DNA from: Xenococcaceae cyanobacterium MO_188.B32
GTDB taxonomy: Bacteria; Cyanobacteriota; Cyanobacteriia; Cyanobacteriales; Xenococcaceae
NCBI GenBank assembly: GCA_030065635.1
Contig: JASJDJ010000010.1
Location: forward strand, 1-64,000
DNA length: 64,000 bases
Reading direction: 5' to 3'
Shown piece by piece: positions 43,992-51,286 of this stretch. The notes under the pieces are model-generated. The model saw only the letters and a list, made by a program, of their open reading frames with translations, did not search any database and was not told the origin of the DNA. A program made the position numbers and the translations under genes. Each line of letters begins with the position of its first letter. Position 1 is the first letter of the stretch.

Positions 43992-46900
43992 TTACCAGGG
44001 GTTGCCGATGATCGTAAAACCGCTCCAATAGTAGGGGTGCTTAAAGTCTCTGTCAGCTGACTCAGCAAGCTTGGGTGGCAGATCAAAACTTTTCTCTTCT
44101 ATCTTCAACTTACCGTTCTCCATCCGTACTTCCCCATTAATCATGTCTAACTGAGCTTGCTGTAGAGCCTCTGCTTTAATGACGCCGGTTTTTTTCAACT
44201 GCTTGTAAAAATCAGCCATCAAACCGAATGTGCCTACTTGTTCGACGAACCAAAGACTTGCTAAATTTGACTTGCTTCCTGCTTTCGCGGAAAACCCAGC
44301 AAAGCCCAACTCGGCCTCCTTATCTCCCAAAGCTGTGCGACAGGCACTCAACACTATAAGTTCTGTGAGTGGATCGCTCAATTTCAACTCACGTACCTCG
44401 TTAAGTCCCAGCTTATTGTCCCGAAATTGGATGTAGGTGTTACTGGGCTGACCAGATTCAAAGTTGGCATGGGTGGATAAGTGAACTATGCCAAACGGGT
44501 CGTCGGCGCGGGCTGCTCGTAACTTGTCCTTGGTAAATTCATTGTTGCGTAACGACTTGCCAGACCATAGTTGTGTAATCACATCCAACTCGGTGTTCAC
44601 AACTGGTAATTCTTTTTCTTTAGGGAATTTCGGGAATTCCACGGCTCCCATTGCCAAGACTGACATCTTCCTCACATCTTTATAGTGAGTATCAGTCAGT
44701 GAAAGACTGGGCATCAAGCCAACGCTGTATTTTTCCACTAGAAACTTTTGCCCATCATGGAGTGCCGCCACTGGCAGGGAGCGCAAATTGATATCCATAA
44801 CGAACACGAGATTATCAATTTCTTGTTTTTGTAACTCCTCCTCCAGAGGAGCAACTAGCCACTGATAGAGCTGTTTAGCCGGTGGTAGGTAACGCTTGGA
44901 GGGTTCGAGCTTCTTATCATTGCTAATTTTCCGAAATCGATCAGCTGCTATCTTGACTTTCTCTCGCGTTGCTCCTTCTGCCCACTTCCGAATCGGTTGT
45001 CCTTTAGAGGGTACTAGTACCAGCTCTAATCTATCTTCCGGCTGACCCTTGAAGTCTAGCGCCTCCTCTGCTGAGAGAACAGTTTGCGGGAAGAAGATGG
45101 CATAGATTAGAGCTGGTTTAATGCCAGTCGCTTGTTCAATCTGGCGCAGGGTTTCCTGGATCTCATCCAGGTTTTTGATGGGAGTTCCGCTGATGCCTAG
45201 ATAAGTCTCAAACTCACGAGTAAAGCGTGTCTCTGGGGTCAATGTAGAGAAAGGCTTGATTGCTACTGGTGAGATGGGATCTTTTTTTAGAGGTGGGATG
45301 GGTTTTTTTAGGGGGCTGATATCTCTCTCGAAAGGGGGTGGATCGACGCTAATAATCTGAATATTACCTTCTCTGAAAGTGAAGGGGAAGGACCTAAAAG
45401 GCAGAATTGAGAACTCACCACTGGTAATAGCAGCTTCCGTGCCGTTGATAGTAGCATCCCCCACCTCAAAGGGAGTCAAACCGCGTCCCCCATGTTGGAT
45501 CGTGATGTCTCCTCCCCCTTGACCGCCTGCTGTAGAAATACTGGCAATTACATCATTATCGTCTGTGAAAGTGTCAGTGGCTCGGAAAAATTGCTCGGTT
45601 GTAATATTAACGTTACCTCCTATTCCGCTGCTACCGCCTTGGGCATTGATAGAAGTAACTTCAATATCACCACTGGGATCGAGGTTAACATTGCCTCCGT
45701 TACCCACACTACCCCTGGAATCAATCGTGCCGATGGTGATGGTAGTGGAAGCATCAACGGTAATATCGCCCCCGCTGGTACCGGAGCTAGTGAGATTGCC
45801 CGTAGAAATTGTCCCACCACTGTCGAGAGTAATCCCTCCGCCTTGACCGCTGCCCTGGGAACTCGAATTAATCTCAGCACTAATACTAATAATATCCCCT
45901 GCGGCATTGAGAGCAACCGCGCCCCCGCTACCATTGGCCGCAGAAGAGTCAAGGCTACCACTAGAAGTATCGATCGTCCCCCCGCTGGTGATTCCAATCT
46001 CCCCGCCATTGCCAGTAGTGCCATTGGCTGAAGAGACAATGGCAGCCGTAGTAATGTCGCCAGCAGCTTCTAGAGAAATTGCTCCTCCATCTCCCCCGAC
46101 CGAACTAGCGTTGAGAGAGCCAGCCGTTGTCTCGATCGTTCCGCCGCTGTCGAGGGTAATCCCTCCGCCTTGACTGCTGCCCTGGGAACTCGAATTAATC
46201 TCAGCACTAATAATATCCCCTGCGGCATTGAGAGCAACCGCGCCCCCGCTACCATTGGCCGCAGAAGAGTCAAGGCTACCACTAGAAGTATCGATCGTCC
46301 CCCCGCTGGTGATTTCAATCTCCCCGCTATTGCCAGTAGTGCCATTGGCTGAAGAGATAATGTTGCCTGTGGTGATATTGCCTGACGCTTCCAGGTCAAT
46401 CGCGCCCCCATCTCCCCCTACCGAACTAGCGTTGAGAGAGCCAGCCGTTGTATCAATTGTTCCGCTGCTTTCGAGAGTAATTGCCCCACCTTGACCACTG
46501 CCCTGCGAACTTGAATCGATATCACCTGTAGTAATGTTACCAGGAGCAGTGAGAGTAATCGCTCCTCCGTCATTAGTAGAGCTAGTGTTAAGTACCCCGA
46601 TACTGGTATTGATATTGCCAGCGTTGCTGGTTATCGTAATTTCCCGACCAGGATTGGTGATATTCCCAGTAGTAATGTCTTGGTTGGCTAGTAGGGTAAT
46701 TGTAGCGTTGTCTGCTCCAGTTAAGGTAAAACCTGTGGTAGTGATTGAGCCTGAATCGGATGGCGATCGCAAAGTAACAGGATCATTAAAAGTCACATCA
46801 CCATTCAGGGTAATCTCACCGCTGCTGTTATCCCGTCCAATGATGATGGTGCCAGTTAACTTTGCTAGTTCCGTACTGTTTAGGAAAGCTGCATCTTCCC

Positions 46901-49733
46901 CACCGATTTCTAGGTCAAGATTGGGGGTTAATGGCTGCACGAGCAGCTCGTTGCCAGTTACAAAAACATTATCATCGCCAACAAGCTCAATACTGTCAGC
47001 GGTTAGGGTAATATTGCCGCTCCCCGAGTCGAGACTGCTAGTGGTTGCAGTGTCTTCAGGTTCAAAAACAACGATACCGTCACTGTTGGCACTAGTCCCA
47101 GTAAGGTTAATATTCCCGCCCCCCGAGTTAATCGGGGCTTCAACACCGATGCCAAAGCCCTCGATGCCACTGCTAGTCCCAGTGAGGCTGATATTCCCGC
47201 CCTCCGAGTTAATCGGGGCATCAACCCCGATCCCGTCACTATTGACACTAGTAGTCCCAGTGAGGCTGATATTCCCGCCCCCCGAGTTAATCGGGGCATC
47301 AACCCCGATCCCGTCCTCAACAGACGAGACACTAGTAGTCCCAGTGAGGCTGATATTCCCGCCCTCCGAGTTAATCGGGGCATCAACCCCGATCCCGTAA
47401 CCGCTACCGGAAAGAGTAATATCTCCGCTCCCCGAGTTGAGCGGGGCATTAATAGCTATGCTGTCACCTATGATGCTGGTTCCATTGACAGTGATATCCC
47501 CACCACCTGTCAAGATAGGCTGATTGATGTCGACGGTTCCCCGGTCATTGCCATCGCTGTCTGCGTTTAAAAACAAGTTCAGCAAGTCACCGCCACCATT
47601 GCTGTCAAATATCTGTCCATTGATGTTGATATTGCCAGCTGCCTCCAAGGTTAGAGTATTATTACCCGTCTCGTTGAAATCAAGGTCTGTAGCTAAGGTG
47701 ATATTTCCATCTTGGGTGCCTGTTATCCCAGTTGATACAATAACTGTGGCTCCGTTAGTCAAGGCAGCCAGGAGGTCGCTGATATCTAGGAATGCATCGT
47801 TATCGATTGCGGTAAAGATCTTAGAGCCATTCTCTTCCGTCTCATCGATATCAAAAGAGGACACGTCCGAATCAATGGTGATATTGTGCGGATCGATCAG
47901 CCAAGTCCCCCCTATACCAGCTGACGCAGAGACATTAGGAGAGTTGGTCACGTCCAAGAATCCACCACTACTGGTTTCGACAAAACCGCCATTGCCAGAA
48001 TTCACACCGCCACGGGCACTAATAGAGCCATAGACGCGGGTGGTTGCCTTTGACCAAACAATAACGCGACCGCCATTGCCATCCGTCAAGGCATCAGCAT
48101 TAATCGCCGAATCTTCACTGACAAATGTCACCTCTGCATTGGGTACTGTACCCTGACCTTTATAATCCCCACCAATTAATACCGTGCCACCGCCATTGTT
48201 CCCAGAGGCATCAATATTGGCTCCAATCACTCCCACCTTATCTCCCAAAACATTGACGCTGCCACCCGCCTCACCAGAGACATCGAGAGTACCAGAGGCG
48301 ATCGCCGTACCCCCATCGGTGGGAATAGTCGTGTCAGAATTGTTCAGTTGCACTGTGCCATCGGAACTAGCACTCAATCCTGTCTCCACATTCTCTGCTG
48401 GACCCGTCAGCAAAGTGGGTAAATCTAATACCCGAATCGGCTGCTGCTGTCCATCCGCCGTTGTTGGCAGCTCAACTTCTAAACTGAGAACCTGCCCTTC
48501 TTGGCTAATTTGCACCCGACTGGTTCCCGGTACAGCCGTTACGGTAATGTTGCCTCCTGGAGCCTCTATAGTGCCAGTATTAATAACTGTCCCGCCCATC
48601 AGAGACAGATTGTGTTCCGGTGCTACTGTCAAGTCGCCGGCATTAATAATAGTTCCTGCTTGCGTCCCCTCAAATTGAAAGGCATTAGGGTTGCTCACCA
48701 AGTTGATATAGTCATTAGCGCCAAAAGCATTAAACCAAACCTCATCAAAACCAATCCCCGTAGCGGTGGTAGCAGTGAAATCAGCAGGGACATTTAAACT
48801 AGCATTGGCTCCAAAGACGATCCCCGCTGGGTTCATCAAAAATAGGTTGGAGTTGCCACCCGTGACTTGAATCAGACCATTAATAATGGAGGGATTGCCA
48901 CCATTGATGCGAGACAAAATATTCCTAATCGAAGGATTGGACAGAAAGTTGGCAATTTGGTTGGCATCTAAACCAAACTCCTGAAAACTGTGAAACAGAT
49001 TTTTGCCATCCCCCGACAGGGTGCCGCCGTCGATGTCAAAGCGTTTGCCCTCTTGGGTCACAATGGTCATTGTCCCGTCATTGTTGGGGATAATTTGTTG
49101 GGCACGTGCTGGCATTACGCCAATAGCTGCTGCGAGGGGAAGGGCTGCCAGAAATACGCTTGCCCTTTTAGCTAATGCTGGGATTGGGTTTGGCTTCCGG
49201 CGCAAGCAGAACCGACCCCGATCGACCTCGATCTCAAAGCGGTCAGCTAACCCGCGACGCTTGAGTGCCAGAGCGATCGCCCTCTGGGAATCGCGGATTT
49301 GCTCTAGCCGTTTTCCGTAGGATATGGTTTCTGAGTGGTAGCGGTAGTAGTAGAGGGGTTTCCTAATGCGCTCGACTTGGGTGACTTCTGAAAGTTTCAA
49401 ACATAGATCGTAGTCCTGAGCACACTCAAATGATTCGTCAATACCGCCAACTTGATTAAACACAGAGCGACGGATTAGTCGGAAGTGGAAGGTCATGAAA
49501 TCCACCAGCAGTCGCTGAGGGGAGTAGGGAATCCGACAACGGCACCCATAACCCTTAACCTTCCCGGTTACGTCCATATCTAGGTAGTCAGTGTACACCA
49601 ACCCTACCTCTGGGTGGGCATCTAACAAGGCAGCCGTTTCCTTAAGTGCCGTAGGAGCCAGCAGGTCATCGCTGTCTACCCAGCCGATATAAGCCCCTCT
49701 AGTCTCGGCGATCGCCGCTTGTAAAGAGAGCAC
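43992..49733 (-). CDS. Chimeric GT2 - filamentous-haemagglutinin (TpsA) - CHAT protease protein
   Basis: A 1,913-residue protein in several blocks. Residues 1-165 are the latter part of a family 2 glycosyltransferase (GAYIGWVDSDDLLAPTAL, then FECAQDYDLCLKLSE), without the nucleotide-binding start. A signal-peptide-like segment, RASVFLAALPLAAAIG to ARAQ, lies at 189-212. The TPS secretion domain follows (GGNSNLFLMNPAGIVFGANASLNVPADF). A Gly/Ser/Thr/Asn-rich beta-helix passenger with internal repeats runs to about 1480. The C-terminal 330 residues are a CHAT caspase-like peptidase with His1755 in VHLSTHANF and Cys1798 in LSACRTALG, ending YYWSGFTIIGNPW. The start is GTG; the GT2 frame is open further upstream into the end of the TpsB gene. 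The internal signal peptide would be hidden if translated from the GT2 start. Confidence 0.8.
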   Translation of the reverse strand: MLSLQAAIAETRGAYIGWVDSDDLLAPTALKETAALLDAHPEVGLVYTDYLDMDVTGKVKGYGCRCRIPYSPQRLLVDFMTFHFRLIRRSVFNQVGGIDESFECAQDYDLCLKLSEVTQVERIRKPLYYYRYHSETISYGKRLEQIRDSQRAIALALKRRGLADRFEIEVDRGRFCLRRKPNPIPALAKRASVFLAALPLAAAIGVMPARAQQIIPNNDGTMTIVTQEGKRFDIDGGTLSGDGKNLFHSFQEFGLDANQIANFLSNPSIRNILSRINGGNPSIINGLIQVTGGNSNLFLMNPAGIVFGANASLNVPADFTATTATGIGFDEVWFNAFGANDYINLVSNPNAFQFEGTQAGTIINAGDLTVAPEHNLSLMGGTVINTGTIEAPGGNITVTAVPGTSRVQISQEGQVLSLEVELPTTADGQQQPIRVLDLPTLLTGPAENVETGLSASSDGTVQLNNSDTTIPTDGGTAIASGTLDVSGEAGGSVNVLGDKVGVIGANIDASGNNGGGTVLIGGDYKGQGTVPNAEVTFVSEDSAINADALTDGNGGRVIVWSKATTRVYGSISARGGVNSGNGGFVETSSGGFLDVTNSPNVSASAGIGGTWLIDPHNITIDSDVSSFDIDETEENGSKIFTAIDNDAFLDISDLLAALTNGATVIVSTGITGTQDGNITLATDLDFNETGNNTLTLEAAGNININGQIFDSNGGGDLLNLFLNADSDGNDRGTVDINQPILTGGGDITVNGTSIIGDSIAINAPLNSGSGDITLSGSGYGIGVDAPINSEGGNISLTGTTSVSSVEDGIGVDAPINSGGGNISLTGTTSVNSDGIGVDAPINSEGGNISLTGTSSGIEGFGIGVEAPINSGGGNINLTGTSANSDGIVVFEPEDTATTSSLDSGSGNITLTADSIELVGDDNVFVTGNELLVQPLTPNLDLEIGGEDAAFLNSTELAKLTGTIIIGRDNSSGEITLNGDVTFNDPVTLRSPSDSGSITTTGFTLTGADNATITLLANQDITTGNITNPGREITITSNAGNINTSIGVLNTSSTNDGGAITLTAPGNITTGDIDSSSQGSGQGGAITLESSGTIDTTAGSLNASSVGGDGGAIDLEASGNITTGNIISSANGTTGNSGEIEITSGGTIDTSSGSLDSSAANGSGGAVALNAAGDIISAEINSSSQGSSQGGGITLDSGGTIETTAGSLNASSVGGDGGAISLEAAGDITTAAIVSSANGTTGNGGEIGITSGGTIDTSSGSLDSSAANGSGGAVALNAAGDIISISAEINSSSQGSGQGGGITLDSGGTISTGNLTSSGTSGGDITVDASTTITIGTIDSRGSVGNGGNVNLDPSGDIEVTSINAQGGSSGIGGNVNITTEQFFRATDTFTDDNDVIASISTAGGQGGGDITIQHGGRGLTPFEVGDATINGTEAAITSGEFSILPFRSFPFTFREGNIQIISVDPPPFERDISPLKKPIPPLKKDPISPVAIKPFSTLTPETRFTREFETYLGISGTPIKNLDEIQETLRQIEQATGIKPALIYAIFFPQTVLSAEEALDFKGQPEDRLELVLVPSKGQPIRKWAEGATREKVKIAADRFRKISNDKKLEPSKRYLPPAKQLYQWLVAPLEEELQKQEIDNLVFVMDINLRSLPVAALHDGQKFLVEKYSVGLMPSLSLTDTHYKDVRKMSVLAMGAVEFPKFPKEKELPVVNTELDVITQLWSGKSLRNNEFTKDKLRAARADDPFGIVHLSTHANFESGQPSNTYIQFRDNKLGLNEVRELKLSDPLTELIVLSACRTALGDKEAELGFAGFSAKAGSKSNLASLWFVEQVGTFGLMADFYKQLKKTGVIKAEALQQAQLDMINGEVRMENGKLKIEEKSFDLPPKLAESADRDFKHPYYWSGFTIIGNPW
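45843..46520 (-). repeat. Near-identical tandem DNA repeats in the TpsA passenger (period about 321-327 bp)
   Basis: A block at about 45850-46060 recurs 321 bp further on (327 bp on the other side of a 6-bp indel) with only a few substitutions. A third, more diverged copy continues to about 46520. The repeats encode Gly/Ser-rich beta-helix turns (GGTIDTSSGSLDSSAANGSGG). Such close identity points to recent duplication or conversion. Confidence 0.85.
47095..47420 (-). repeat. Second tandem repeat block in the TpsA passenger (period about 60-75 bp)
   Basis: Five units encode a repeated GIGVDAPINSGGGNISLTGT sequence with spacer variations. At the DNA level the CCCGAGTTAATCGGGG word recurs in each unit and is itself a hairpin. 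Confidence 0.85.
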
Positions 49734-49753
49734 GCGCCCTTGATGATTCGCTG

Positions 49754-51286
49754 CTACAACTCGTACTCTGGGATCCCGTTTGGCATACTCCCTTGAATTA
49801 TTAAAAGGTTATCATCATTGAGAACTTGCACCCGCTGCACTTGCGCTAACCAACTGAAGAATTGACCATCAGGGTCTGGGGAAGGATTTTCGGTAGCATC
49901 AAATAAACCAGTCCCGAAGCGTAACTGAGAGCGAAATGTCCAAGCCCCAGAGACATCGCGGAGGGTATATTCTTGTCCCAACTCAAACACGCTGGTGCGA
50001 CTGACACCATCTTCATCAGGTCCAATACCGAAAGGAAAGCCATTTTGAAAGAGAAAGTTCTGACCGTCCCGATAGACAAAGCCTAAAGATAAAGCTAATT
50101 CTTGACTAGGGTTGAGAATTAATGGCTGTCGGTAGCTAATTTCATACTGTTCCGCTTCTCCCCGAATATCCAAGTCCTCAAATTCTCCCTCTACCACTTC
50201 ATTGCGCTCGATCGAGGTTCTCAGTTGTAGGGTGCCGTTCATCGGATTTAGAGGTGCTTGATAGACAAACTCTAACTGATAAGTCCCGTCTATAGTCTGG
50301 ATTCTGGGACGATAGGAAGCAGAAATTTCATCGCCGATTCCAGTGAGATTGCGATAGAGCAGATTGAGGTTTAGACGTTCGCCACCCACACTAGGAGGAG
50401 AATAGTTATCAATGCCCAAGTTACCCTCAAAAGGGTCAGCTTCGGTGACGCGCACCACCAGAATACTCTTACCTTCTTCATTAGCAGATCTGAGACTTGC
50501 TTCTACGTTTTCAAACAAGGGATTAGCTCGTAGTAGACGTAATTGGTCTTCCAGCTTTGAGATATTGAGAGGTATATCAACTCCCAATTTCACTCGCGAG
50601 CAGATATAGCCAAGATTCGGGCGATTTTTGTTCTTTTTTCTTTCAATCTCAATCGTTTCCAATTGCCCTTCAATAACTTTAATTTGAACGATTCCATCTT
50701 TTAGGTAAACTTGTGTTGCTCTGGAGGTGAGAAACCCCTTGTTTAAGTACAGTTGCGTGATGGCCTTGGTGATGTTACTCTCAACAGCTTTTAGTTCTTC
50801 AGAGGTGACAGTGCCTTCTTTATTGTTTTTAATAAATTCTTCAAGAATTTTAATCGGGTCTTCAGAAAGGTCACCTTCAGGAGTGACGGTGTCCTCTTTA
50901 AATTTTTTAATAAATTCTTCAAGAGAGATAGTCTTGCCTTCTTCCCCCAAGACAGTGCGACCAGTAACTTGAATTGTCCGATCACTTAGTTCAGGTGTAG
51001 ATGGCTTCTTCTCGTCAGATTCGCTGGTCGTTAATGGACATGGAAGTCGTTCCAGTTTCTCTTCCGGTTTCTCTTTATTAGAATCATCTGGCTGATTTTG
51101 TGCCAGTTGTTGAGGAATGATACTCTCTGATATAGGAATAGTCCTGAATCGGGTCTTGGAATCTCGGATGATTGGGCGTAAGCTAGCTTCACTGGAAGAG
51201 GCATATGACACATCAGCCAAAAAAGAAATGAGAAAAATATTAATGAAATTTAACGAAGCAATTATAAACTCTTCGGCATTGTACAT
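49754..51286 (-). CDS. TpsB (FhaC/ShlB-type) outer-membrane transporter, truncated at the C-terminus
   Basis: A 510-residue Omp85-superfamily secretion pore. A signal-like hydrophobic start (IIASLNFINIFLISFLADVSYA) is followed by a polar linker and POTRA domains (ITKAITQLYLNKGFLTSRA, VQIKVIEGQLETIEIE). The beta-barrel begins near GNLGIDNYSPPSVGGERLNLNLLYRNLTGIGDEI. The likeness runs normally to VLNDDNLLIIQG and then breaks off after a few unrelated residues (SMPNGIPEYEL). The family normally continues about 110-130 residues through the LPSQQF...GGGQS-type segment and the last strands. Those are missing, so the barrel probably cannot close. The out-of-frame overlap with the GT2 piece marks a recombination joint near 49790. 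POTRA-1 shows an internal duplication (EEFIKKFKEDTVT / EEFIKNNKEGTVT). Confidence 0.8.
   Translation of the reverse strand: MYNAEEFIIASLNFINIFLISFLADVSYASSSEASLRPIIRDSKTRFRTIPISESIIPQQLAQNQPDDSNKEKPEEKLERLPCPLTTSESDEKKPSTPELSDRTIQVTGRTVLGEEGKTISLEEFIKKFKEDTVTPEGDLSEDPIKILEEFIKNNKEGTVTSEELKAVESNITKAITQLYLNKGFLTSRATQVYLKDGIVQIKVIEGQLETIEIERKKNKNRPNLGYICSRVKLGVDIPLNISKLEDQLRLLRANPLFENVEASLRSANEEGKSILVVRVTEADPFEGNLGIDNYSPPSVGGERLNLNLLYRNLTGIGDEISASYRPRIQTIDGTYQLEFVYQAPLNPMNGTLQLRTSIERNEVVEGEFEDLDIRGEAEQYEISYRQPLILNPSQELALSLGFVYRDGQNFLFQNGFPFGIGPDEDGVSRTSVFELGQEYTLRDVSGAWTFRSQLRFGTGLFDATENPSPDPDGQFFSWLAQVQRVQVLNDDNLLIIQGSMPNGIPEYEL

Follow-up and report, generated by a model that had tools for sequence, protein, structure and literature searches.

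A probable deletion at a cyanobacterial two-partner secretion locus and the GT2-TPS-CHAT protein family to which it belongs

Genes and domains at the locus

The window, a 64,000-nucleotide stretch of the Xenococcaceae cyanobacterium MO_188.B32 genome (contig JASJDJ010000010.1, positions 1 to 64,000), carries on its minus strand two adjoining genes of a two-partner secretion (TPS) system: a shortened tpsB, and a long reading frame that combines a glycosyltransferase 2 (GT2) domain, a TPS domain and a CHAT protease domain. The principal features, in the direction of transcription, are as follows.

49754-51286, minus strand: tpsB, truncated at its 3' end; retains POTRA and the initial two thirds of the barrel (Pfam, alignment with homologues)
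49785-49800, minus strand: proposed deletion joint from tpsB (..ATTCAAG) to GT2 (GGGAGTATGCC..), placed by sequence comparison with relatives; possible microhomology of about 2-4 bases
43992-49733, minus strand: longest open reading frame with a start codon (GTG 49733), 1913 aa; the tpsB stop lies 20 bases upstream
49221-49790, minus strand: GT2 domain, truncated at its 5' end; first ~49 residues gone, DxD (VDSDD, 49679-49665) retained
49203-49205, minus strand: the sole in-frame TTG shortly 5' of the signal-peptide core, a candidate weak internal start (frame reading)
49101-49202, minus strand: internal signal peptide RRKPNPIPALAKRASVFLAALPLAAAIGVMPARA, followed by QQ; hydrophobic core about 49157-49116, counterpart N-terminal in unfused relatives
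48444-49097, minus strand: TPS secretion domain (PF05860; Pfam, TIGR01901)
44001-44885, minus strand: CHAT domain (caspase-like protease; PF12770), retaining the His of STHANF and the Cys of SACR

The TpsB frame (51286-49754) follows its family as far as LLIIQ (49793) and then translates as GSMPNGIPEYEL and a stop; with all three frames translated, it reads ..DDNLLIIQ upstream of the joint before entering these same residues. Homologues continue past LIIQ in 11 of 11 aligned cases, ten relatives of the same clade by a further 133-136 residues, and the paralogues in the same genome likewise run on. Measured against a type Vb transporter, with its POTRA and complete 16-strand barrel, the window protein has the POTRA and the start of the ShlB domain (both detected by Pfam) but lacks about 133 C-terminal residues. 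The first-pass annotation had described just such a truncation, and the alignment confirms it as specific to this copy, close homologues not stopping at the same place. The eleven foreign residues counted there are twelve when numbered from the end of LLIIQ, and eleven only if the initial G is regarded as native. Among 60 relatives, TpsB matches at E < 1e-85 occur in 31 genomes, including that of the window, and apart from the window copy they mostly lie in frames of 529-740 codons.

From 49790 onward, a frame different from that of TpsB reads EYAKRDPRVRVVAANHQG. Across the joint this frame translates as SREYAKRDPRVRVVAANHQGRV.. and extends upstream without interruption as far as a stop near 49814; its earliest start codon is GTG 49733, and reinitiation there after the tpsB stop, 20 bases away, is possible. 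The two genes thus read in different frames where they meet, which bears out the joint previously placed near 49790. Downstream, GT2, TPS and CHAT share one frame, although the GT2 match spans only profile positions 47-167 of 168 (Pfam). The lost part corresponds to the first, nucleotide-binding beta-alpha-beta unit and the WDDGS motif, such that the complete GT-A fold with both DDGS and DxD, present in intact relatives, is absent here. What remains is well preserved: all 51 near-invariant GT2 positions in this remainder are kept, as are 63 of the 65 in the TPS domain.

The TPS domain (PF05860, E 2e-42; TIGR01901 above cut-off) sits directly behind a signal peptide ending in AxA before Q, as in a TpsA exoprotein. 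The usual N-terminal placement of that signal is not seen, about 240 GT2 residues preceding it in intact members. The CHAT domain is matched over its full length (PF12770, E 2e-64), with the catalytic His in STHANF (44477-44460) and the catalytic Cys in SACR (from 44348). Both the apparently intact His/Cys pair and the 1,913-residue product with a buried signal peptide (GTG 49733 to 43992) therefore stand as first described.

GT2-TPS-CHAT proteins in other cyanobacteria

The locus had initially been viewed as a recombinant, in which the middle of a GT2 gene was newly joined to a TpsA-CHAT protein. A search for GT2-TPS fusions elsewhere, proposed at that time as a check, argues otherwise, since the same order with a full GT2 in one open frame occurs in dozens of cyanobacteria. 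With the 441-residue GT2-TPS piece as query, the same fusion was recovered from other genomes, in one case at 65% identity over the whole piece. The loci of relatives retain the natural GT2 start (e.g., MSPLISLVITTYNRE) and continue from it, without a change of frame, through the linker and signal peptide into the TPS domain. Across the family the order is a full-length GT2, a linker, an internal signal peptide of cleavable type, the TPS domain, a variable region and CHAT, over about 1550-2150 residues, and most complete frames finish in the CHAT signature ..HPYYWAAFTMIGNPW. An internal signal peptide is thus normal in this family and not a sign of damage.

This GT2 subfamily is present in 66 of 388 genomes of the class, with 38 matches in 30 genomes lying within open frames of more than 1000 codons. 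Of 40 loci fetched, all have GT2 followed by TPS except one that is frameshifted (L152). Among the best 80 loci of a GTDB scan, GT2-TPS fusions account for 45 rows, the window counted in, and 34 are complete fusions with CHAT. Carriers include closed or isolate genomes, among the isolates Trichocoleus sp. FACHB-40, Stenomitos frigidus ULC18, Calothrix brevissima NIES-22 and Desmonostoc muscorum FACHB-395. In each of the 29 complete proteins scanned, Pfam placed GT2, TPS and CHAT in a single frame, and all of them have the CHAT His and Cys. Close pairs give dN/dS values of 0.07-0.19 for GT2, 0.05-0.21 for TPS and 0.03-0.11 for CHAT; the GT2 values indicate purifying selection on that domain. 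Even the short linker is well below 1 in most close pairs. GT2-TPS-CHAT is a conserved cyanobacterial architecture and not a local chimera. It is apparently undescribed: no account of a TPS-CHAT-GT2 combination was found in the literature searched, a single paper collection.

On an 80-row GT2 tree, the fused state changes 4 times, against a mean of 26 for shuffled labels. Fused GT2s group together in a single region of it, and the window copy lies there, paired with Scytolyngbya HA4215-MV1 (support 96/82). This distribution is consistent with one or very few fusion events and some losses. The TPS tree is weaker; there, unfused proteins from the window's own family fall among fused ones, which suggests that GT2 was lost in that family lineage. 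The TpsB tree separates the clade of the window tpsB from the paralogues of its own genome with support 100, and every tpsB found adjoining a fusion falls within that clade. One such tpsB, beside the Scytolyngbya fusion (L129, L209), is 54.8% identical to that of the window.

What happened near 49790

Together, these comparisons make it likely that a two-gene system, TpsB plus GT2-linker-signal-TPS-stalk-CHAT, is present here in a copy damaged by deletion, with its secretion broken. The simplest account of the sequence is that a deletion joined the cognate tpsB to its GT2-TPS-CHAT partner. Such a deletion would have removed at least ~530 coding bases, namely at least 133 tpsB codons, about 49 GT2 codons and any intervening sequence, costing TpsB the last part of its barrel and GT2 its nucleotide-binding N-terminal part. 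The sequences of relatives suggest a possible microhomology of only about 2-4 bases at the joint. The likely outcome would be an inactive GT2, an inactive transporter, and a CHAT exoprotein that is intact but stranded. Given the retention of 51 of 51 GT2 and 63 of 65 TPS conserved positions, the event is recent, unless it is an assembly error.

In G018, of the same family, tpsB is directly followed by a tpsA in the same orientation without GT2 (L058). The tpsB and fusion genes stand in tandem in the window and are divergent in four or five relatives, and an intact tpsB with a full GT2-TPS-CHAT gene in the window's exact tandem order was not found among the relatives. A genome of the same genus (G001) was considered as the source of an intact orthologous locus and rejected; its intact tpsB has neither the partner nor ispG beside it, and its only GT2 is a stand-alone one.

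A truncated gene might nonetheless remain useful, if a start at TTG 49205 or reinitiation at GTG 49733 gave a TPS-CHAT protein that another TpsB could secrete. A start at the TTG would yield a normal-looking signal peptide, the existence of unfused TPS relatives shows that GT2 can be dispensed with, and the genome holds about 16 further TpsB-like open frames of more than 200 aa. We consider this outcome unlikely, as neither an ATG nor a clear ribosome site precedes the signal peptide and the full-length TpsB paralogues are at most 43% identical to the window TpsB and fall in a separate clade. An intact TpsB of the cognate clade was not found in the genome assembly, where the only other cognate-looking member is a 206-aa fragment on another contig (L153:3469-4089). 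With tpsB truncated and no intact cognate in the assembly, secretion of the window CHAT protein has probably been lost. Of the two outcomes offered earlier, a broken system or one rescued by an internal start, the former is therefore favored; the start could restore a signal peptide but not a transporter. The tpsB piece on C60 was also considered as the lost tail and rejected, the 206-aa fragment matching query residues 291-460 and not the end. Broken TPS genes occur at another place in the same genome, with a 364-aa TpsB frame beside a 227-aa TPS frame (L154:3028-5752).

It is rather improbable that the deletion is an assembly artefact, in which the organism has an intact tpsB and GT2-TPS-CHAT gene and a stretch at 49790 is missing from the contig. 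The assembly is a draft of 281 contigs, the named genomes of its family were assembled from metagenomes, and the flawless set of remaining GT2 positions would fit an intact gene equally. Nevertheless, the joint lies in the interior of a contig, and the 120 bases spanning it occur once in the genome. Repeat-mediated misassembly was rejected, since the longest exact repeat shared with the genome is no more than 16 bases, which leaves little for a false overlap, and neither the missing GT2 start nor the missing tpsB end has a copy elsewhere in the assembly.

That recombination instead brought the central part of an unrelated GT2 gene to lie between tpsB and an ordinary tpsA-CHAT gene, as first proposed from the meeting of two truncated genes at a single point, is scarcely credible: full-GT2 fusions are widespread, the window GT2 clusters with fused GT2s, and it is more parsimonious that a deletion joined tpsB to the GT2-tpsA gene that lay downstream of it.

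A second 5'-truncated GT2-TPS gene, in G020 (L056:3439-5394), overlaps, in a different frame, with the last part of an adenylate/guanylate cyclase-like gene to which it is unrelated. A mobile 5'-truncated element with a fixed breakpoint was entertained and rejected, as the G020 breakpoint differs and L146 and L272 break elsewhere. We read these decayed copies, that of the window included, as separate decay events.

One polypeptide, its proposed function and known systems

The linkers from GT2 to TPS range from 10 to 235 residues and are in frame and stop-free in all 44 fusions. The hydrophobic segment within them is taken as a signal peptide by homology, because unfused relatives carry the homologous segment near the N-terminus with the same end point. 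Could GT2 and TPS-CHAT be made as separate proteins from one frame, by way of an internal start that leaves GT2 untethered? Some members do have an ATG, GTG or TTG immediately 5' of the hydrophobic core, and in one low-coverage metagenome assembly, Leptolyngbyaceae cyanobacterium RU_5_1, GT2 and TPS-CHAT lie in separate frames, whether split or frameshifted (L175:6429-10834), with an ATG immediately 5' of the signal core. This possibility appears quite improbable, since 34 of the 44 linkers have no ATG before the core, 10 lack ATG, GTG and TTG altogether, and the frame is held over the full range of linker lengths. Moreover, in L272:890-7396 (G425) an in-frame deletion has removed the second half of GT2 and the DxD motif reads VDRDE in place of VDSDD; what is left runs on in frame into the signal peptide and TPS domain, and an intact tpsB lies directly downstream. 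Frame retention despite a gutted GT2 is hard to explain if exoprotein translation starts inside the linker.

The linkers of L115, L126, L146 and L152 carry translated short repeats (PTPHSLLPTPHS, GVGSREWGVG) resembling cyanobacterial short tandem repeats. They are inserted in frame in the first three; L152 is frameshifted within its TPS part.

A structural model of the Stenomitos frigidus ULC18 N-terminal region (mean pLDDT 86) comprises a complete GT-A domain, a low-confidence signal-peptide stretch and TPS strands. Both by structure (Foldseek) and by sequence, the best match of its GT2 part is E. coli K4 chondroitin polymerase.

By analogy, and with rather less than even confidence, we propose that GT2-signal-TPS-CHAT is the precursor of a self-glycosylating exoprotein, whose tethered cytosolic GT2 modifies its own passenger during export and is then released by signal peptidase and left behind. 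The GT2 domain would remain in the cytosol while Sec export begins from the internal signal segment; cleavage by signal peptidase between AxA and Q would follow, and TpsB would move the TPS-CHAT part to the surface. Signal cleavage itself is an inference, as is the action of GT2 on its own passenger, to which it may, more doubtfully, add sugar before export.

Stand-alone members of the GT2 subfamily adjoin large secreted proteins in several loci (Calx-beta/RTX, CARDB/laminin-G, subtilase/Calx-beta). On three Nostocales plasmids, of Calothrix and Aulosira (L238-L240), they neighbor genes longer than 30 kb that encode giant surface proteins and bear the annotation polymorphic membrane protein or peptidase S8, and a toxin-secretion ABC transporter also lies nearby on two of the three. 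Such neighbors are suggestive of an exoprotein-glycosylation role but fit it only partly, and not at all loci. The plasmid GT2s are themselves labeled "filamentous hemagglutinin outer membrane protein", a name probably copied from the fusion and a caution for annotation. In other cyanobacteria the same subfamily is fused to sulfotransferase-like domains (L069, L070, L111).

TPS exoproteins are described as beginning with a signal peptide. Where a complete enzyme comes first, as in this conserved family, the questions arise of how a 240-residue folded domain precedes a Sec signal and of what it glycosylates. The family is testable because isolates carry it (Trichocoleus, Stenomitos frigidus, Calothrix brevissima, Nostoc), and the natural GT2 losses in the window and L272 are ready-made comparisons. 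Whereas the local feature is an ordinary, well-defined deletion (misassembly being less likely), the wider family, a variant of two-partner secretion, is the more interesting result.

Several known systems share parts of this architecture. Unfused cyanobacterial TPS-CHAT proteins (e.g., L072) have homologous TPS and CHAT domains and the same signal-peptide boundary, but no GT2, and their signal peptide is N-terminal. The caspase-like domains of polymorphic toxins are likewise clan CD proteases in large secreted proteins; the survey of these toxins names HINT as the sole T5SS processing protease and leaves CHAT unmentioned, and a GT2 fusion is not described in the passages considered (PMC3482391). 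In exoproteins with FhaB-type extended signal peptides, residues also precede the hydrophobic core (PMC5422565), but the extension is short, whereas GT2-TPS-CHAT carries a whole 240-residue enzyme there. Closest in logic is HMW1A/HMW1B/HMW1C of Haemophilus influenzae, in which a cytosolic GT41 enzyme glycosylates the TpsA protein before Sec export (PMC3983070; PMC5422565). Both systems combine a TpsA exoprotein, a TpsB transporter and a dedicated glycosyltransferase, cytosolic before export there and putatively so here. HMW1C, however, is a separate GT41 protein of GT-B fold acting in trans, while the cyanobacterial enzyme is a GT2 (Pfam) of predicted GT-A fold (Foldseek), fused ahead of the signal peptide. 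If the proposal is true, the fusion would amount to an HMW1C-like third partner supplied in cis, with a wide distribution among cyanobacteria.
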